From Meiothermus sp. (lineage in GTDB: Bacteria > Deinococcota > Deinococci > Deinococcales > Thermaceae): a DNA stretch of 64,000 bases. Within the stretch, counting starts at the first letter, position 1. Every line of letters begins with the position of its first letter. The position numbers were made by a program, and so were the translations under genes. The notes under the pieces were generated by a model. That model did not search any database, had not been told where the DNA came from, and saw only the letters and a program-made list of their open reading frames with translations. Below are positions 602 through 9,698 of this stretch, piece after piece. The DNA is taken from positions 435,803-499,802 of the forward strand of contig NZ_BPIJ01000002.1 in assembly GCF_026004055.1 (NCBI RefSeq). The letters run 5' to 3'.

Positions 602-1315
602 CTAGAGCTGGTGGCCTTCGGGGGCATGCCCCTCCACCCAGTGCGAGCCATCGGGCAGAAATTCCTTTTTCCACACCGGCAGTATTTGTTTGACCCGCTC
701 AATGGCATAACGGCATGCCTCGAAAGCCTCGGGACGGTGCGGTGCCGAGACTACGATTAAAATGGAGCCCTCGCCGGGCATCACCCGGCCCAGGCGGTGC
801 CACAAAGCCACCCGGCCCAGCACCCAGCGCTCGCGCATCTCGGCAATAATTTGCTGCATGACCTTCTCGGCCATGCCGGGGTAGGCCTCGTATTCCAGGT
901 AGGTCACAGCAAGGCCTTTGTTGGGGCTGCGGGTGGTGCCCAGGAAACTCACCACCGCTCCGTAAGGGTCATCCGAGGCCCAGTCTACCCAGGGCTGCAC
1001 CAACAAAACTTGCTGGGTCAGGCCAAAGCTATCGCTGCCTGTAGTTTGCCGGACAAGCTCGGCCTGGCTCTGCTCGGACGAGCCCCCCGATACCGGCGGC
1101 AGGAAGGCCAGTTCATCGCCATCTTTGAGTGGGTCGCTGGGTTGAGCTAGTTGTTCGTTGATGGCCGCCAGCCCGCCCGCTAGTTGCAGGGGGTACTGGG
1201 CTTCCAGCAGGGCCTTGGCATCGGCAACGGTAGAACCGGGGGGAAGCTCGAGCTCGAGCCGGGCCTGCCCCGCCTGCTCACGAAAAAGGGCAAATAGCAA
1301 TATCCGAACACGCAT
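602..1315 (-). CDS. MoaD-MoaE fusion: molybdopterin synthase, both subunits in one chain
   Basis: Molybdopterin synthase inserts two dithiolene sulfurs into precursor Z (cPMP). Residues 1-80 are a beta-grasp MoaD domain (MRVRILLFALFREQAG) ending in a Gly-Gly at 77-78 (PPVSGGSS). Residues about 110-230 are MoaE, with GAVVSFLGTTR, HRLGRVMPGEGS, APHRPEAFEACRYAIE and the lysine-bearing VWKKEF segment that corresponds to the MoaE active site. A linker of about 25 residues joins them. In separate MoaD the terminal glycine must be free to carry the thiocarboxylate, so this internal Gly-Gly implies cleavage, as reported for mycobacterial MoaX. MoaA is encoded elsewhere in the window at 30.6 kb. It lies 57 bases downstream of hrcA on the same strand and may share its transcript. 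Confidence 0.9.
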   Translation of the reverse strand: MRVRILLFALFREQAGQARLELELPPGSTVADAKALLEAQYPLQLAGGLAAINEQLAQPSDPLKDGDELAFLPPVSGGSSEQSQAELVRQTTGSDSFGLTQQVLLVQPWVDWASDDPYGAVVSFLGTTRSPNKGLAVTYLEYEAYPGMAEKVMQQIIAEMRERWVLGRVALWHRLGRVMPGEGSILIVVSAPHRPEAFEACRYAIERVKQILPVWKKEFLPDGSHWVEGHAPEGHQL

Positions 1316-1372
1316 AGTTTTGATTGTCCTGGCTCGAGGGCCGAGTGTCTAGGGGTCAAAGGCTCAAAACGT

Positions 1373-2278
1373 TCACTTCCCCATATACGCCTGGCTCATG
1401 GTATAAGCCACCGACAACGCCCGTTCGTAGCGCATGCGCACCGGGCCCAAAAGGGTCAGTTCGCCGACTTGGTCGTTTGCCCCAAACCCCGCCTGTACCA
1501 GCGAGAGCCCCTCGTCCTCCCCCACCCGGACATTCACACCCCCTGGAGGGGTGAGGGTAGTGTCGCTGGGGCCTTCGTAGACCGCAATGGCCTGGCGCAA
1601 AAATAGGGGGTTCTGGGCCTCAGGCTCGCTTAGCAAAAGCCCCATGCCTTCGCGGTATTCTTCCTGGCCGCCTTGGGCAAACGCCCTGCCGATGGATTCG
1701 TACAGTTCCATCATGGCCGGCGTGCTAGCCCGCACCGGCCCGGGGGTTTTAAACAGGCGCTGCTCCGCTTCGTTCAACTGGGCTTCGGTGGGCGTGAAGG
1801 ATAACTCGATGCGGGCCTCGCGCACCCGCCCCCCTTCCAGCACGGCTACCGCCAGCACTTTGCCGGGTGTCAGGCTGGAAAGGTGCACCTGCAATAATTT
1901 GGGCGCACGCTGGGATTTGAGTCGCAGGATGGCAGGGTAGCCCGAGAGCCTGGAGGCCACCTGCACCAACAAAGCCTCGCGCCTCGAGCCCGCACCCTCC
2001 AGCACCTGGGCCAGTTTGTCGAGGGTGGCTTGGGGCAGAGGGCTGGGCGGCAGTTTGGACAGGGCATAGTGGCGGAACCCGGCACGGGTAGGAATACGAC
2101 CGGCCGAGGTGTGGGGCTTGCCGATCAAGCCTTGCTGCTCGAGCTCGATCAGCTCGTAGCGCACCGTGGCAGGCGACAGCGACAACTGCTGGGCCAGCAT
2201 CCCCGAGGGTACCGGGGTCTGGGTCTGGATATAACTATCCACCAGCAGGTGTAAGATGCGCCGCTGCCGCTCAGTCAT
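1373..2278 (-). CDS. hrcA: HrcA-type heat-inducible transcription repressor
   Basis: HrcA represses chaperone operons by binding CIRCE, with GroEL as corepressor. The N-terminal winged helix-turn-helix (residues 1-75) has MTERQRRILHLLVDSYIQT, SPATVRYELIELEQQGLI and HTSAGRIPTRAGFRHY, all characteristic of the family. A GAF-like central region and a C-terminal dimerisation part follow (GLLGPVRMRYERALS is close to the family's GPxRMxY ending). At 301 residues it is somewhat shorter than the roughly 340 of Bacillus HrcA. No CIRCE inverted repeat (TTAGCACTC-N9-GAGTGCTAA) is visible upstream, and no dnaK/grpE/groE gene is adjacent, so it presumably acts in trans. moaDE follows downstream. Confidence 0.9.
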   Translation of the reverse strand: MTERQRRILHLLVDSYIQTQTPVPSGMLAQQLSLSPATVRYELIELEQQGLIGKPHTSAGRIPTRAGFRHYALSKLPPSPLPQATLDKLAQVLEGAGSRREALLVQVASRLSGYPAILRLKSQRAPKLLQVHLSSLTPGKVLAVAVLEGGRVREARIELSFTPTEAQLNEAEQRLFKTPGPVRASTPAMMELYESIGRAFAQGGQEEYREGMGLLLSEPEAQNPLFLRQAIAVYEGPSDTTLTPPGGVNVRVGEDEGLSLVQAGFGANDQVGELTLLGPVRMRYERALSVAYTMSQAYMGK

Positions 2279-2596
2279 ACCTGGTTTTTAGTTTAGAGCC
2301 AAACCCGCCATGTGGGGTATTGCGGGTTCCATTGTGTGGTGGCTCCGGTTCTTCTTCCCGCTAGGGCATTTCGCTGCTAGACAACCCCTGTACAGTCCGA
2401 TTTTTTGGGGCGGCGCAACTCCATGGATATACCTCAAAGCACTCTTGTGAACGACAGATTGCTTTTTTGGCGCGCATTATTAGCAAAGATGGGGCAATAT
2501 AATGCAAAATGTACGCATATTTTTGTACATATGTTCGATAAATTATTGACAATATGCAAAAACCCGGGTAGTCTCTGCTCAGGGGGTGAAGGTTTG
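2279..2596. other. Intergenic regulatory region between divergent hrcA and amt
   Basis: No gene is supported here; an upstream extension of the amt frame to 2405 is rejected because a better start with a Shine-Dalgarno sequence lies at 2597. The AT-rich stretch 2470-2580 contrasts with the GC-rich neighbours. It contains ATGTAC and GTACAT arms (around 2509 and 2524) flanking an A/T-rich centre, which could be a nitrogen-regulator site, followed by a good promoter. Confidence 0.5.
2546..2574 (+). promoter_or_regulatory. Promoter of the amt-glnK operon
   Basis: TTGACA (2546-2551), a 17-base spacer and TAGTCT (2569-2574) match the sigma-70 consensus in spacing and in the TAnnnT form. Transcription would begin about 15 bases before the Shine-Dalgarno sequence of amt. 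Confidence 0.65.
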
Positions 2597-3958
2597 ATGA
2601 AAAACTTTCGACTGCTGCTATTCCTGGGGGCCACGCTCATGGGCCTGGCCTTTGCCGAAGACCTCGAGATCAGCGCAGCGGACACGGCTTGGATGCTGGT
2701 GGCCACCGGTCTGGTGCTGCTGATGACCCCGGCGCTGGCTTTCTTTTATGGCGGAATGGTGCGCTCCAAAAACGCCCTCAACACCATGATGATGAGCTTC
2801 TCGGCGCTGGGCTTCGTGGCGGTGGCCTGGGCTTTGCTGGGCTACACCCTGGCCCTGTCGGGCGACGGCAACTTTATCGGCGACCTACGCTACTTATTCC
2901 TGAACAACGTGGGCATGGAAAACAAAGGGGCCATCGCGTCCATCACCATTCCCCACATGCTTTGGATGATCTTCCAGGGTACCTTTGCCATCATTACCGC
3001 CGCCCTGATCTCGGGCGCGGTAGTGGAGCGGATGCGCTTCCCGGCCTTTTTGCTGTTCATCACGCTGTGGAGTCTCTTGGTCTATGCGCCCTTGGCCAAG
3101 TGGGTCTGGGGGGGCGGCTTCCTGGCCGACCTAGGGGCCTGGGACTTTGCCGGTGGCACGGTGGTGCACATCAACTCCGGAATTGCGGCGGTGGTAGCGG
3201 CTTTGGTGCTGGGGGCACGTAAGGATTTTGGGCGGCAGGCCACCTTGCCCCACAATGTGCCCTTTGTGCTGCTGGGGGCTGCCCTGCTCTGGTTTGGCTG
3301 GTTTGGTTTCAATGCGGGCAGCGCCTGGGCGGCCAGTGCCACCGCCGGGCTGGCCCTGACCAACACCATCCTGGCCCCGGCGGCCACCATTGTGGTCTGG
3401 TCGCTGATTGATCTGATGCGCACGGGCCGGGTAACCGCTGTGGGGCTGGCCACTGCAATTGTGGTGGGCCTGGTGGTGATCACCCCTGCCGCGGCGTTTG
3501 TCTCGCCCTTCTTTGCCCTGGTGATGGGCGCAATCGGGGCCTTCCCGAGCTACTACGTGCTGTTGTGGCGGGCCAAGAGCGGCATGGATGACTCGCTCGA
3601 TGTGTTTGCTGCCCACGGGGTAGGCGGCATCACCGGCGCCATCCTGACCGGGGTGTTTGCCCAGGAGTCGGTGAACGGATTGTTCAACGGCCTGATTGCG
3701 GGCAACCCAGCCCAGGTGTTGATTCAGGCCTTTGCAGTGTTGATTGCGGTGGTTTATAGCGCCGGCATGACCTTCGTGCTGCTGAAGCTGGTGGGGGCCA
3801 TCACCCCGCTCAAGGTTGCGGCCAAGGAGGAGGGGGTGGGGATGGACATCACCCAGCACGGCGAAGAAGCCTACACGAGTGGTGAGGGCGCCATCCTGGT
3901 CAAGAGCGAAGCCCCCATGCCGGTGGCCAGACCCAAGCCCGTAGGTGGCACCGATTAA
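2597..3958 (+). CDS. amtB: Ammonium transporter (Amt/AmtB family)
   Basis: This channel moves ammonium/ammonia across the inner membrane and is gated by PII. The chosen start gives 453 residues, usual for AmtB, with a signal peptide (MKNFRLLLFLGATLMGLAFA) and the Shine-Dalgarno sequence AGGGGGTGA just upstream. Family marks are MTPALAFFYGGMVRSKN near residues 44-59, DFAGGTVVHINSG (first pore histidine) and DDSLDVFAAHGVGGITG (second pore histidine). Eleven hydrophobic segments follow the signal. The C-terminal tail contains the cytoplasmic region that contacts GlnK. glnK starts 11 bases downstream, the classic amtB-glnK pair. The regulation is probably nitrogen-responsive, given the pairing and the AT-rich upstream region. 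Confidence 0.95.
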   Translation: MKNFRLLLFLGATLMGLAFAEDLEISAADTAWMLVATGLVLLMTPALAFFYGGMVRSKNALNTMMMSFSALGFVAVAWALLGYTLALSGDGNFIGDLRYLFLNNVGMENKGAIASITIPHMLWMIFQGTFAIITAALISGAVVERMRFPAFLLFITLWSLLVYAPLAKWVWGGGFLADLGAWDFAGGTVVHINSGIAAVVAALVLGARKDFGRQATLPHNVPFVLLGAALLWFGWFGFNAGSAWAASATAGLALTNTILAPAATIVVWSLIDLMRTGRVTAVGLATAIVVGLVVITPAAAFVSPFFALVMGAIGAFPSYYVLLWRAKSGMDDSLDVFAAHGVGGITGAILTGVFAQESVNGLFNGLIAGNPAQVLIQAFAVLIAVVYSAGMTFVLLKLVGAITPLKVAAKEEGVGMDITQHGEEAYTSGEGAILVKSEAPMPVARPKPVGGTD

Positions 3959-3969
3959 GGAGAACGTTG

Positions 3970-4320
3970 ATGAAACTGATTGTGGCCATCGTTCGAACCG
4001 AGAAGCTCAACGATGTGTTGGAGGCTCTTTTCAAGGCCGAGGTGCGGGGTCTTTCGATCAGCCGGGTACAGGGCCACGGCGGCGAGACCGAGCGGGTCGA
4101 GACCTACCGGGGCACCACCGTTAAGATGGAGCTTTCGGAAAAGGTGCGCCTGGAAATCGGCGTTTCCGACCACTTTGTGGAGCCCACCGTGCGGGCCATT
4201 CTGGCCGGTGCGCGAACCGGCGAGGTAGGAGACGGCAAAATTTTCGTGCTGCCGGTGGAAAAAGTCTACCGTATCCGCACCGGCGAGGAAGATACCGCGG
4301 CCGTGACTCCGGTTTCGTAG
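3970..4320 (+). CDS. glnK: PII nitrogen-signalling protein (GlnB/GlnK)
   Basis: This trimeric sensor of 2-oxoglutarate and ATP/ADP blocks AmtB and tunes nitrogen enzymes. It has 116 residues, full length for PII. The start is ATG 3970 with the Shine-Dalgarno sequence AAGGAG at the end of amtB. The signature elements are MKLIVAIVR, the T-loop (about 37-55), the B-loop TGEVGDGKIFV and the C-loop VYRIRTGEEDTAAV. In the T-loop the tyrosine of YRG (position 46) is kept. The position of the classical uridylylation site Tyr51 is valine (YRGTTVKME), so GlnD-type uridylylation is not expected. I recall the Thermus PII having the same feature. An intrinsic terminator follows at once. Confidence 0.95.
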   Translation: MKLIVAIVRTEKLNDVLEALFKAEVRGLSISRVQGHGGETERVETYRGTTVKMELSEKVRLEIGVSDHFVEPTVRAILAGARTGEVGDGKIFVLPVEKVYRIRTGEEDTAAVTPVS

Positions 4321-4336
4321 AGAAAGCAGAACCCGA

Positions 4337-4364
4337 CCAGGTGGGGTTTCCCACCTGGTTTTTT
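4337..4364 (+). terminator. Intrinsic terminator of amtB-glnK
   Basis: CCAGGTGGG (4337-4345), a four-base loop, CCCACCTGG (4350-4358) and a run of six T residues lie 16 bases after the glnK stop. Confidence 0.9.
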
Positions 4365-4404
4365 GTAGTACCTCCGACTACTGCGCCTCCCACGGTAAGA
4401 CGTT

Positions 4405-4675
4405 TTACAGCGCTCTTCACAGACGTGGCCGCCCACGAAAACGAGAAGGGACAAGCAGACGTGCCTCACCGAGGTGAGGCACGCTTGTCTGCGTTGCGTC
4501 TGGGCCAGGTTAGCCACGTTGTGGCTGTGGCATAAGCCATTCCCTGGCAGACGCATGTTACGCACTGGGGCGTGGGCCACGGGTGCTTGGGCTTCGAGTT
4601 TCCCGGCGGCCACTGTTCTGTCCAGGACAAAAGATTCTTACCACGATGGCTCGATATTTGTGAAGAGCGCTCTAA
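4405..4675. mobile_element. Element A, intact empty copy (about 270 bp, MITE-like)
   Basis: The ends are 13-base perfect terminal inverted repeats AGCGCTCTTCACA (4409-4421) and TGTGAAGAGCGCT (4659-4671). The similarity extends three more bases on each side (TTA). A second copy lies inverted at 41.1-41.7 kb and a degraded one at 25.3-26.0 kb. The interior is highly folded: GTGCCTCACC-GA-GGTGAGGCAC (4461-4482) with outer GACAAGC/GCTTGTC arms, and a longer stem 4495-4509 against 4543-4555 enclosing AGCCAC-GTT-GTGGCT. It has no credible coding region and no transposase. This copy lacks the element B insertion seen in the other two copies. Confidence 0.8.
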
Positions 4676-4677
4676 CC

Positions 4678-4698
4678 CGCCGTAGCAGGTATTCGTGG
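4678..4698. repeat. Short dispersed repeat D
   Basis: The 21 bases beginning CGCCGTAGCAGG and ending TATTCGTGG recur identically at 30013-30033 and partially, in inverse orientation, near 25425-25437. This copy abuts the end of element A and the 3' end of the aminopeptidase gene. Confidence 0.6.
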
Positions 4699-4707
4699 GA
4701 ACCGCCC

Positions 4708-5781
<1,074 letters not shown>

Positions 5782-5908
5782 GTCTCTGTTATACCCGTCC
5801 TATCACATCCGTCCCACAAAACCCCAAAAACAGCCGATAAAATCGGGCTGTTCGCCCCTATCCTGTATTCCGGTAGGCATATGTACGTGAAAACCCCCAC
5901 TTCTGCGC

Positions 5909-5914
5909 TATGAT
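5909..5914 (+). promoter_or_regulatory. -10 box of the 5924 gene, leaderless type
   Basis: TATGAT lies nine bases before the ATG at 5924, and no Shine-Dalgarno sequence intervenes. Transcription would start at or within a few bases of the start codon. No convincing -35 box is visible. The imperfect hairpin AACAGCCGAT/ATCGGGCTGTT (about 5828-5852) lies further upstream between the divergent genes. Confidence 0.5.
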
Positions 5915-5923
5915 GTAGAAAGC

Positions 5924-7279
5924 ATGAGCGAAGTCAAAATCACCCCGCTGGCCCGTCGTCTGGCGGAAGAGAACGGCATAGATTGGCGCCAAATTCAGGG
6001 CACCGGCCCCGACGGCACGGTGGTCGAACGGGATATTCTGGCCTTTTTAGCGCGGGTTATGGCCGGGGAGGTCAGCCTGCCGCCGGCCCCCGAAGAAACC
6101 GCCCCCCCGGCGGGTGTCATCCCCGATATGGCCCAGGCCCAGGTGGCTTTGCAGAAGGAAGGGGTCGAGCTGGGCGAGCTGGTACCCTCGGTTTCTGCGC
6201 CCCCATCTGCCTCGGCCTTGCCCACCCTGGAAGACATCGAGTTTGATCTCGACCTCGAGGCAGACACCCCCATCACCCCGGTACCCTCCGCCGCCGAGGC
6301 CTTCGAGGAGGTGCCCTCGCTGGCCCCCGAGCCCCCCGTTGTCCCGGACTTCGACGAACCCGAGCCGCTGGTGGCCGCCCCGCCCCTACCCACACTCCAG
6401 TGGGAGGAGCCGGAACCCCTGCCCTCTCCTGTGCCCCCCAACCCCGAGCTGGCCGATTTGCCGCCCCTCCCCACCGAGACCGACCTCGAGCCCCCCAGCA
6501 GCCCCAAGCTAATTTGGGAAACCCAAGAGGTCACGATAGCCCCCGAGACGCCCGCCCCCTCACCCGCCCCCCTGGAAGCGGGCATGAGTTTCGGCAACAT
6601 CCCCGAACCGCTGGAGACCCCGCCCGTTGCATCCGTGGAGCAGATACCACAGGCACCCTCGGTGGAAGAGCTTGCGCCTCCTCCGCCAGCCGAGCCGTTA
6701 ACACCCCCTGGGCCCGAACCCACGGTAGCGCCCCCCATTGCGCCCGTAACCCCACCCCTTACAGCCACCGGGCTGGCGGCCTCCCCTGTCGCGGAAGCTG
6801 CCCCCAGTCCCAAAATGCTGCGGGTGCAGGCCTGGCAACGCCTGGTGCAGATTGGGCCGGCCCAGGACGCTGCCTTGACCCTGAGCGAGGCCTGGCATAT
6901 GGAGGTGGGGCTGGACGCCCTGCTCTACCGCGCGGCAGACAAAGCCCTGTCCGACACCCAAACCCCCTTGCGCCCCACCAAGGGCCGCCTCGAGGGCGAC
7001 CAACTCCAGAGCCTGCGGGTGGCCCCCGCCCAGTCGCTGCGGGGTGCGCTGGACTCCTTGCGCATGGCCTCCGACCCCGCCGAAGGGTTGGTGGTGCTCT
7101 CGCTGGTAGACAGCGCCTTCGATCAGGTGATCTTCCCCGGCGCCTCCACCCTCACCCTGGGCCGGGCCACCGAGGGCCGGGCTCTGCTCACCCTGAGCGG
7201 GGAGATGCACCCCGACCTGGCCGGCAACCTCCTGGAGCGGGTGGCGTACTACCTCGAGCGCCCCATTTTGCTGGCCTAA
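5924..7279 (+). CDS. Protein with E3-binding (peripheral subunit-binding) domain, Pro-rich linker and degenerate E2-like tail
   Basis: Residues 1-45 (ITPLARRLAEENGIDW, IQGTGPDGTVVERDILAFL) are a clear peripheral subunit-binding domain, the module by which 2-oxoacid dehydrogenase E2 holds E1 or E3. Residues about 55-300 are a Pro/Glu/Ala-rich, probably disordered linker. Residues about 305-451 resemble a shrunken E2 acyltransferase core (LYRAADKALSDTQTPL, FPGASTLTLGRATEGRALL, LLERVAYYLERPILL). The HxxxDG active site is missing; the matching stretch reads GEMHPDLAG. There is no lipoyl domain. It may be an assembly or docking factor for a dehydrogenase complex, but no such genes are adjacent. 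The function is not known to me. Confidence 0.75.
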   Translation: MSEVKITPLARRLAEENGIDWRQIQGTGPDGTVVERDILAFLARVMAGEVSLPPAPEETAPPAGVIPDMAQAQVALQKEGVELGELVPSVSAPPSASALPTLEDIEFDLDLEADTPITPVPSAAEAFEEVPSLAPEPPVVPDFDEPEPLVAAPPLPTLQWEEPEPLPSPVPPNPELADLPPLPTETDLEPPSSPKLIWETQEVTIAPETPAPSPAPLEAGMSFGNIPEPLETPPVASVEQIPQAPSVEELAPPPPAEPLTPPGPEPTVAPPIAPVTPPLTATGLAASPVAEAAPSPKMLRVQAWQRLVQIGPAQDAALTLSEAWHMEVGLDALLYRAADKALSDTQTPLRPTKGRLEGDQLQSLRVAPAQSLRGALDSLRMASDPAEGLVVLSLVDSAFDQVIFPGASTLTLGRATEGRALLTLSGEMHPDLAGNLLERVAYYLERPILLA

Positions 7280-7347: not shown

Positions 7348-7374
7348 GAGCCCCAGCGGAAGGGGCTCAGTTTT
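7348..7374 (+). terminator. Intrinsic terminator after the E3-binding-domain gene
   Basis: GAGCCCC (7348-7354) and GGGGCTC (7362-7368) form a stem followed by AGTTTT. The stem overlaps the stop codon of the convergent gene, so it may serve both strands. Confidence 0.6.
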
Positions 7375-8644
7375 GCGGCCTGCAGCCCGTACGAACCGTC
7401 ACCCCTCTGGCAACGAAAGACCCTACCCCACCACCAAAACGCCAGGTGTAGATGTTGTTGCTGTAAACCAGTTCGGGTGTGGTTTGTACTAGGCCTAAAG
7501 TCTGGAAGGCGTTATCGTAGAAAACCTGCACCTGATTCCCACTGACCCAGTTGACAACCAATCGTCCTCCCTCACATACATAGGTGATCCGCCCTGAAGG
7601 CACTGCGGGTACCGGCACTACGATGGGCGGCTGTGGCTGGGGCGGCGTGAAGGCTACCAAACTGGCAAAAACGTTGGTCACCCGACCCGCCTGTACCACT
7701 ACCGAGGTGCGGAAGTCTTGATAACCCCTTAGCCGAAGCACAACGGTGTAGCGCCCAGGCCGCAGGGTGAGGTTGAGGGGGGTATTGCCCACCACCCGGC
7801 CATCTATCAAGACCTGAGCCCCGCTCGGATTGGAGCTGACAGCCAGGGTGCCGGTGGCCGGGGCCTCGGGTTGCAAGTTGGCAAATACTCGGAAGGTGCC
7901 AGCACCGGGGATGTTGACATTGGTTCGGTAGGTCTGGTAGCCCAAGCGGCGCAGCTCAACAGTGTAGTTGCCAGGGTTCAGGCTGAAGGTGGCCGGGGTG
8001 CGGCCTCGCAATAGGCCGTTGATAAGGATGTCGGCCCCACTGGGATTGGAGTCTATCACCAGGGTACCCAAGGCCGGAGGCGGGGGTGGAGGAGCCACCA
8101 CTTGTTGCGCGATGTAATACGCTTCGTCGCTTACCCAATCCTGTTGAGGAATGGGCGTAACCACAATAGACAGAGAGCGGGCCAGGTTGTCAAAGCCCTG
8201 GATGCGGGCCCGCCCGGTTTGAATGTCCACAATTTCCGATACATCGAGCGGGCGGCGGCTGGCCACCGCCAGCACTCGATCCTGGCCTGCCGGTGGTTCT
8301 ACGTTGAAACTGTACCGCGCACCCGGGCTAGGGAAGCTGCGAACTTCGCCTGCAGCTAGTAAGTTGTTTTGTTCAAAAGCGTTTGGCAAGATACCGCTGA
8401 TCTGGCCCAGCGAGTTAACGCTAAACAAATATACGTAAGCCGGTTGGGTAACCGATACGCTGATGACGATGGGCTCGCCAAACTGGTAAACTGGATTGCC
8501 AGTCTTTCCAGGGTCTTTGTCTACCCATACCCGCACCTGAAGGTCAGAGGGGGGGTTAGGGTTGACGATAATAGATTGGGGCCGAAGCTGTGCCATTGCT
8601 GCAGCAATCACAAAAGCTAATATCAGGGTTATAGTTCGGTTCAT
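7367..8644 (-). CDS. Secreted surface protein: DUF4384-like, two PEGA domains, MliC-like C-terminus
   Basis: It has 425 residues. A signal peptide (MNRTITLILAFVIAAAMAQ) is followed by a DUF4384-like domain at about 35-140 (GEPIVISVSVTQPAYVYLFS, RVLAVASRRPLD). Two PEGA repeats follow at about 193-260 (GTLVIDSNPSGADILINGLL) and 265-330 (GTLAVSSNPSGAQVLIDGRV). A C-terminal domain at about 350-420 (ITYVCEGGRLVVNW, VQVFYDNAFQTL, YTWRFGGGVGSF) closely matches the small lipoprotein encoded at 9345. PEGA domains are typical of S-layer and cell-envelope proteins. The C-terminal domain looks like the MliC lysozyme-inhibitor fold but without its SGxxY motif. The start is supported by GAGGTG upstream. 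The role is unknown, presumably at the cell surface. Confidence 0.8.
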   Translation of the reverse strand: MNRTITLILAFVIAAAMAQLRPQSIIVNPNPPSDLQVRVWVDKDPGKTGNPVYQFGEPIVISVSVTQPAYVYLFSVNSLGQISGILPNAFEQNNLLAAGEVRSFPSPGARYSFNVEPPAGQDRVLAVASRRPLDVSEIVDIQTGRARIQGFDNLARSLSIVVTPIPQQDWVSDEAYYIAQQVVAPPPPPPALGTLVIDSNPSGADILINGLLRGRTPATFSLNPGNYTVELRRLGYQTYRTNVNIPGAGTFRVFANLQPEAPATGTLAVSSNPSGAQVLIDGRVVGNTPLNLTLRPGRYTVVLRLRGYQDFRTSVVVQAGRVTNVFASLVAFTPPQPQPPIVVPVPAVPSGRITYVCEGGRLVVNWVSGNQVQVFYDNAFQTLGLVQTTPELVYSNNIYTWRFGGGVGSFVARGVTVRTGCRPQN

Positions 8645-8802
8645 CTTTACACCTCAAAGATCCTTGCTCTCTAGGCTATACTTCTTTACCTATTCAGTCT
8701 ATCAGCAGTTTCTTAACCTCCTTCGAGGATGCCGTCTTTAGCATCACTTAAACTTTTCACCAGCGTAATTTCAAAACCAAACCCGTGTGGTACTCTAGAA
8801 CC

Positions 8803-9318
8803 ATGAGACCCATAAAGCCTTTTTATTTTTTGGCTGTTCTGATGCTTGCTTTTGGATTATCGGGCTGCATAATAGTTGCAGGAGGACTTCAAATATCTAA
8901 TGCAAGTTTTGCAACCAGCTACTGGGATGGAAACGCAAGTAATCCCACCTATTACATCTGCGACAATAAAACAACCCTAGTCGGTTACACCTTCCGCTAC
9001 AATGACCCAACCTTGTTAGAAGGATGGGACTCTTACCTCAGAGGTCTTGCCAGTGGAGGCATAGCCGGTTCTGTTTCATTTAACGCCAACGATCCCCGTA
9101 ATGATACAACCTCCCGTACCGTCTCGGTAACTTACAATGTACCCGCCGGAACCGCCCCACTCCGGGCAACCCCGCAAACTATAAACATTACCCCTACGCC
9201 GGTTCCAAGCCCCTCGGTAATCGGCAGAACTTATGTTGAAGTCAGGGTGCGCTCAACCACTGGCGCTACCCGCACTCTCACCTTCGGCCCAGCCCTTGTG
9301 ATTGACAATTGCCCTTGA
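8803..9318 (+). CDS. Small lipoprotein of unknown function
   Basis: It has 171 residues from ATG 8803. The signal sequence ends in a lipobox (GLSGC, Cys near residue 22), so it is a predicted lipoprotein. The mature part is rich in Thr, Ser and Asn and looks beta-stranded (TYYICDNKTTLVGYTFRY, TYVEVRVRSTTGATRTLTF), with only two cysteines after the lipid Cys, which could form a disulfide. I do not recognise the family. TACTCT lies six bases before the ATG, suggesting a leaderless transcript. Base composition is visibly poorer in GC than neighbouring genes, a possible sign of transfer. The MliC-like lipoprotein gene follows 26 bases downstream and is probably cotranscribed. Confidence 0.7.
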   Translation: MRPIKPFYFLAVLMLAFGLSGCIIVAGGLQISNASFATSYWDGNASNPTYYICDNKTTLVGYTFRYNDPTLLEGWDSYLRGLASGGIAGSVSFNANDPRNDTTSRTVSVTYNVPAGTAPLRATPQTINITPTPVPSPSVIGRTYVEVRVRSTTGATRTLTFGPALVIDNCP

Positions 9319-9344
9319 AAACTGTCCAGCACCCTAGGTGAAAT

Positions 9345-9698
9345 ATGATGCGCACCCTAATACTTTCAAGTCTTTTGCTGGCTCTTTCTTCCTGCATCTT
9401 ATTGGTTGATGACGAGCCTCGGCAAATCACCGTAACCGACCCGCAGCCTGTGCCTATTCCCTCCCCCAGGCCCGATACCTATACCTATAGCTGCAATGGC
9501 GGGCGTTTGGTGGTTAGTTACGTGGACAACAACACCGTGCGGGTATTCTATGACAACGCCTTTCAAACCCTTACCTTGACCCGCGTCACTCCGTTACGCA
9601 CATACGTAGGTGGGTCTTTTGTTTGGGAGCTGGATCGCAATGGTCTTGGTACCTTCCGGGTAGGCGGCACCCTGGTGCGCTCCAACTGTCGCATCTAA
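9345..9698 (+). CDS. Small lipoprotein with MliC-like domain
   Basis: It has 117 residues. A signal peptide has a lipobox (LALSSC), followed by a short Pro-rich spacer (DPQPVPIPSPRPD) and one beta domain. That domain (YSCNGGRLVVSYVDN, VRVFYDNAFQTLTL, GGSFVWELDR, TLVRSNC) parallels E. coli MliC (VYDN near the middle, VFW, NC at the end). The SGxxY inhibitory motif of MliC is replaced by TPLRTY, so lysozyme inhibition is doubtful. The same domain forms the C-terminus of the divergent PEGA protein at 7367-8644, so the cluster looks like one functional unit. Tandem ATG codons at 9345 and 9348 are both possible starts. A terminator follows. Confidence 0.7.
   Translation: MMRTLILSSLLLALSSCILLVDDEPRQITVTDPQPVPIPSPRPDTYTYSCNGGRLVVSYVDNNTVRVFYDNAFQTLTLTRVTPLRTYVGGSFVWELDRNGLGTFRVGGTLVRSNCRI

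Follow-up and report, generated by a model that had tools for sequence, protein, structure and literature searches.

A candidate E3BP-like subunit of 2-oxoacid dehydrogenase complexes, without a lipoyl domain, in Meiothermus and its phylum

The window, a stretch of 64,000 nucleotides that forms part of the Meiothermus-type genome G000, carries on its plus strand an open reading frame (5924..7279) that begins with ATG, encodes 451 amino acids plus a stop codon and has orthologues throughout the phylum. Just upstream lies a promoter-like site, GTGAAA-16-TATGAT (5887..5914, plus strand), whose -10-like box stands 9 nt before the ATG; at this spacing, TATGAT or TATCAT is kept in the aligned Meiothermus and Thermus orthologues. 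Read from the nucleotide sequence, this arrangement agrees with an mRNA whose leader is short or absent. The initial annotation had proposed a leaderless start, a claim that fits the box in these orthologues but is less well matched at three other loci (L041, L055 and L061), where the start-proximal box differs from the TATGAT/TATCAT pattern.

The same annotation had described the gene as standing alone and had advised a search for orthologues and their neighbours. Indeed, no 2-oxoacid dehydrogenase gene was found beside it in any of the lineages examined, nor an operon shared with such genes, and a search of plasmids gave no match. Its divergent neighbour encodes an M29 aminopeptidase (4708-5781, minus strand), an arrangement that recurs across the Thermaceae and at some deeper loci while the other neighbours vary; the two genes may have a common control region. 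The convergent neighbour (7367-8644, minus strand) encodes a protein with a DUF4384 and two PEGA domains, beyond which lie two small lipoprotein-like ORFs at 8785-9698. Genomic context, which consists of the M29 aminopeptidase and of UvrB, an S-layer protein or a PEGA protein, was dropped as a functional clue.

The protein is built from three parts. At its N-terminus, a peripheral subunit-binding domain (PSBD; PF02817, residues 4-39, 5933..6040, plus strand, E=1.8e-14) is the sole Pfam match in the 451 residues; no lipoyl domain was found with Pfam, and the PSBD already starts at residue 4. In Foldseek, the modelled PSBD fold matches its counterparts in E2 and in human E3BP. There follows a tether rich in Pro, Ala and acidic residues (residues 59-297, 6098..6814, plus strand), delimited by composition and orthologue comparison, whose 239 amino acids include 61 Pro and only 3 Lys or Arg. 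Both its length and its sequence are poorly conserved among orthologues, and its length varies widely; in one orthologue of about 1,430 amino acids (L130, G072:C224:3800-9600, ORF 942-5246), the acidic tether exceeds 1,100 residues. The remaining tail (residues 298-451, 6815..7276, plus strand) is a putative reduced, non-catalytic E2-core-like domain, assigned by predicted fold and profile alignment. This layout bears out the initial annotation in each of its parts, namely a PSBD at the extreme N-terminus, no lipoyl domain, a Pro-rich tether of about 250 residues and a reduced E2-like core without the HxxxDG motif.

For the tail, neither Pfam nor PDB sequence searches gave a credible match, with PF00198 absent; Pfam searches with 24 tail members returned weak unrelated matches only, a PDB profile search with the tail likewise yielded nothing credible, and a shallow hhalign comparison with three E2s matched 23 columns. 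Since these sequence-only searches were uninformative, a deeper alignment and a fold search were required. The AlphaFold2 model of the tail, computed with 24 aligned tails, has a pLDDT of 92.9 and a pTM of 0.89, and its best PDB matches in Foldseek are E2 cores, with E about 1e-6. With a second aligner (VIA), superposition on E2 cores covers 152-154 of the 154 tail residues at a Z of up to 17.1, and the model also matches human E3BP (6h60) with a Z of 16.0 at 17% identity. Furthermore, in a deeper profile comparison, 54 tails and 49 E2 cores matched co-linearly through 148 columns at a pairwise E of 8e-5, and the reversed control reached a probability of 0.1. The model begins about 25 residues into the E2 core fold and lacks two elements of E2 cores, the N-terminal arm and the first helix; its 154 residues cover about 205 of E2, so that the tail is shorter by roughly 50 residues. 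HxxxDG occurs in none of 36 tails and none of 20 deep orthologues (0/56 in all), and in the profile alignment the E2 catalytic stretch falls at a gap in the tail. The C-terminus, LERPILLA, is conserved and belongs to the most conserved parts of the protein. Altogether, the modelled tail is an E2/CAT fold along its full length. The initial annotation had named a C-terminal fold unrelated to E2 as the outcome that would speak against it, yet the fold found was that of E2, and the structural comparison it had proposed yielded matches to E2 cores and E3BP alike.

This is an old and selected family, because a single-copy orthologue, recognized by PSBD or tail evidence, is present in 77 of 85 good genomes of the phylum. 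Searching with the tail alone recovered a single copy in 47 of the 50 genomes of the taxonomic family, while the tail profile was present in 87 of 111 phylum genomes, at coordinates belonging to the same ORF as the PSBD; searches at phylum and at class level covered an identical set of 111 genomes, with no Deinococcaceae identified among them. In most genomes the number of PSBD genes equals that of E2 genes plus one, and all but one of the 20 deep orthologues that were read have the same architecture. Relative to two Meiothermus orthologues, dN/dS is about 0.05 in the PSBD, 0.19 in the tail and 0.3-0.35 in the tether; judged by these coding sequences, both end domains are under strong constraint and the tether is less so. 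A degenerate core and absent domains could suggest an E2 gene decaying into a pseudogene, or a spurious ORF, but to this we give virtually no chance: it is ruled out by the phylum-wide single-copy conservation, and the confident fold and the purifying selection on both end domains speak against it as well. A different construction is seen at L125 (G108:C1:2761000-2765000), where a minus-strand ORF of 259 amino acids encodes an N-terminal PSBD followed by a coiled coil and ends in KTRPRWKFWG; there, the E2-like anchor may have been swapped for another oligomerising module.

In animals and fungi, E3BP is told from E2 by a Leu at position D+2 of the PSBD, a hydrophobic residue at D+5 and a GxI end, the corresponding human E3BP residues being D215, L217, V220 and I228 (PMC10156792). 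Orthologue alignment against this motif places an E3BP-type counterpart, D37-x-L39-xx-L42 ... G48-x-V50, in PSBD helix 2 and its end in the window protein (6032..6073, plus strand), where D37, L39, L42, G48 and V50 are spaced as in human E3BP. Among 56 distinct orthologues, 55 have Leu at D+2, and all have Leu at D+5 together with Gly at D+11; the third residue of GxI is V, I or L in only 40. In 54 of 55 E2s of the same group, by comparison, position D+2 is occupied by Arg, Lys, Gln or Glu, and the one exception is a member of the E3BP-like family that the script counted as an E2. These motifs are to be read as correlates only, since they make no contact with the canonical E3 interface (PMC10156792).

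Given that PSBDs are able to bind either E1 or E3, an adaptor of the same architecture might recruit E1 and not E3. Such a role would fit the Foldseek results, in which the PSBD matches the E1-bound form (1w85) as well as E3-bound forms, and also the loss of the usual loop residue: the Arg beside the loop glycine, which has been called universal (PMC10156792), is replaced by Thr in the window protein and in most Thermaceae. The helix-2 motifs, however, are of the E3BP type, and we hold recruitment of E1 to be quite unlikely. It weighs against an E3BP-like role that Thermus E3 has, by the PDB titles, been crystallised with the PSBDs of all three E2 types (2eq7, 2eq8 and 2eq9).

Which complex might the protein serve? 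The window genome encodes three ordinary E2s, one of branched-chain type (L001, with E1beta and E3 adjoining), one of oxoglutarate type (L003) and one of pyruvate type (L004, with a homodimeric E1), and the E2s of these genomes bear PSBDs of their own. We searched the class with each E2 core and then tabulated the good genomes. The branched-chain-type E2 occurs in 76 of the 77 gene-positive good genomes, the exception being a draft of 390 contigs, while 13 of the 77 are without a pyruvate-type and 13 without an oxoglutarate-type E2. In several lineages, one of them a genus represented by a complete genome, no E2 other than the branched-chain type was found, and the E3BP-like gene is kept; at these loci E1beta adjoins the E2 gene, as does E3 in 5 of the 8 loci read. 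Conversely, three good genomes have neither the branched-chain-type E2 nor the E3BP-like gene, a joint absence that rests on a single genus. Five good genomes possess this E2 and are without the full E3BP-like protein; two of them, from one genus, retain a PSBD match but lack the tail; of these two, L125 was read, and it has the coiled-coil end. Because related genomes are not independent, the co-occurrence is suggestive and no proof. Provided that the protein works like E3BP, these gene distributions make the branched-chain-type complex its probable partner. Two further observations concern the E2s themselves: one genome holds two E2 genes of pyruvate type, each on its own contig and with the same score (G016:C1:2475224 and G016:C2:21276), and in another, two adjacent PSBD matches (G083:C1:3019287-3019568) lie in one frame of 477 residues, an E2 with tandem PSBDs.

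The missing genomic linkage to dehydrogenase genes, together with the conserved neighbouring M29 aminopeptidase gene, would also suit a repurposed protein in which the PSBD and the E2 fold serve a new role with a partner outside the 2-oxoacid dehydrogenases. Yet the PSBD, at a dN/dS of about 0.05, is the most conserved part of the protein, and the gene persists where the branched-chain-type E2 stands alone and is missing in the single genus where good genomes are without that E2; repurposing is therefore improbable.

In well-studied bacterial complexes, one PSBD binds E1 or E3, never both, and the catalytic domains of E2 are arranged as trimers, each of which contacts its neighbours through packed C-termini. 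On these two properties rests our inference of a tail that joins or docks on the core and of a PSBD that is offered to E3. Hence, we consider that the protein probably serves a 2-oxoacid dehydrogenase complex as a bacterial structural subunit akin to E3BP, and it seems fairly likely that it works as E3BP, the organiser of mitochondrial 2-oxoacid dehydrogenase complexes, does, where E3 binding, core docking, partner and benefit are what we infer. The reduced E2-fold tail would associate with the E2 core, either taking a subunit's place within its trimers or docking at the two-fold interface, where the E2 C-termini are packed, and the long tether would carry the N-terminal PSBD outward, holding E3 or, less likely, E1 at the periphery. 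Since the protein lacks both lipoyl domain and active site, it would add docking capacity outside the acyl relay. E3 would no longer have to compete with E1 for the E2 PSBD, and E3 occupancy could be raised while E1 occupancy is not lowered. The likeliest partner would be the branched-chain-type complex of E1alpha, E1beta, E2 and E3. A role akin to E3BP, or protein X, had been one of several options in the initial annotation, and it is the one favoured by the PSBD motifs and the co-occurrence.

Alternatively, the tail might trimerise alone or stay monomeric outside E2 cores, and the protein would then be a soluble linker that bridges E3 or E1 between complexes or builds a metabolon. The N-terminal arm and first helix that the tail lacks help to build E2 cores, and the wide variation in tether length would likewise be compatible with a soluble linker; however, the C-terminus, which mediates trimer-trimer packing in E2 cores, is highly conserved, as core docking predicts. 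We thus regard a soluble linker as unlikely and retain the core-bound E3BP-like subunit as the preferred reading.

Unlike the Meiothermus protein, mammalian PDHX (6h60, 2f60 and 1zy8) possesses a lipoyl domain, and its core domain is nearly of full length. The two are alike in their inactive E2 fold (Z 16.0 and 17% identity, as above) and in a PSBD with Leu at D+2, a hydrophobic residue at D+5 and an aliphatic one at D+13. In fungal E3BP (protein X, PX; Neurospora crassa Q7RWS2), a flexible linker likewise joins a PSBD with E3BP-type motifs to a core-binding domain of about 165 residues that derives from E2 but is reduced and inactive (PMC7494870, PMC10156792). Fungal PX, however, is part of the pyruvate complex and has a lipoyl domain in addition, whereas the bacterial protein is lipoyl-less and most consistent with a branched-chain-type complex. 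MRPS36/KGD4 of the eukaryotic OGDHC resembles it in its proposed role as a non-catalytic E3 adaptor, yet has neither PSBD nor E2 fold and stands in for the PSBD missing from E2o (PMC9974300), in contrast to the E2s of the Meiothermus-side genomes, which keep theirs. The branched-chain-, oxoglutarate- and pyruvate-type E2s of the same genome share the PSBD and the predicted core fold and differ by their lipoyl domain, HxxxDG motif and charged or polar PSBD residue at D+2. Measured against an E2 (dihydrolipoamide acyltransferase), the protein thus has the PSBD and is without lipoyl domain and HxxxDG; measured against E3BP, it has the domain order PSBD-linker-E2-derived domain, the inactive E2 homologue and the PSBD motifs, and is without the lipoyl domain present in both fungal PX and mammalian PDHX.

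In summary, the protein is E3BP-like in layout, and in view of the taxonomic gap we assume that it arose independently of eukaryotic E3BP. E3BP has been described as a eukaryotic gene, with bacteria sharing one PSBD between E1 and E3 (PMC10156792), and our literature search found no paper describing such a bacterial E3BP-like protein. That bacteria evolved their own lipoyl-less E3BP for a branched-chain-type complex, conserved in the Thermus/Meiothermus phylum and bearing the eukaryotic PSBD motifs, is a proposition we see as evenly balanced; a bacterial E3BP that evolved separately would mean that the E3BP solution is not confined to eukaryotes. Whether branched-chain-type complexes use E3BP is a question already raised for the eukaryotic protein (PMC9974300). 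If true, our reading would give a second example in which E3 recruitment is decoupled, with heat-stable proteins producible in E. coli, by which it could be tested why E3BP evolves, whether PSBD motifs set E3 specificity, and whether branched-chain-type complexes employ an E3BP-like subunit.
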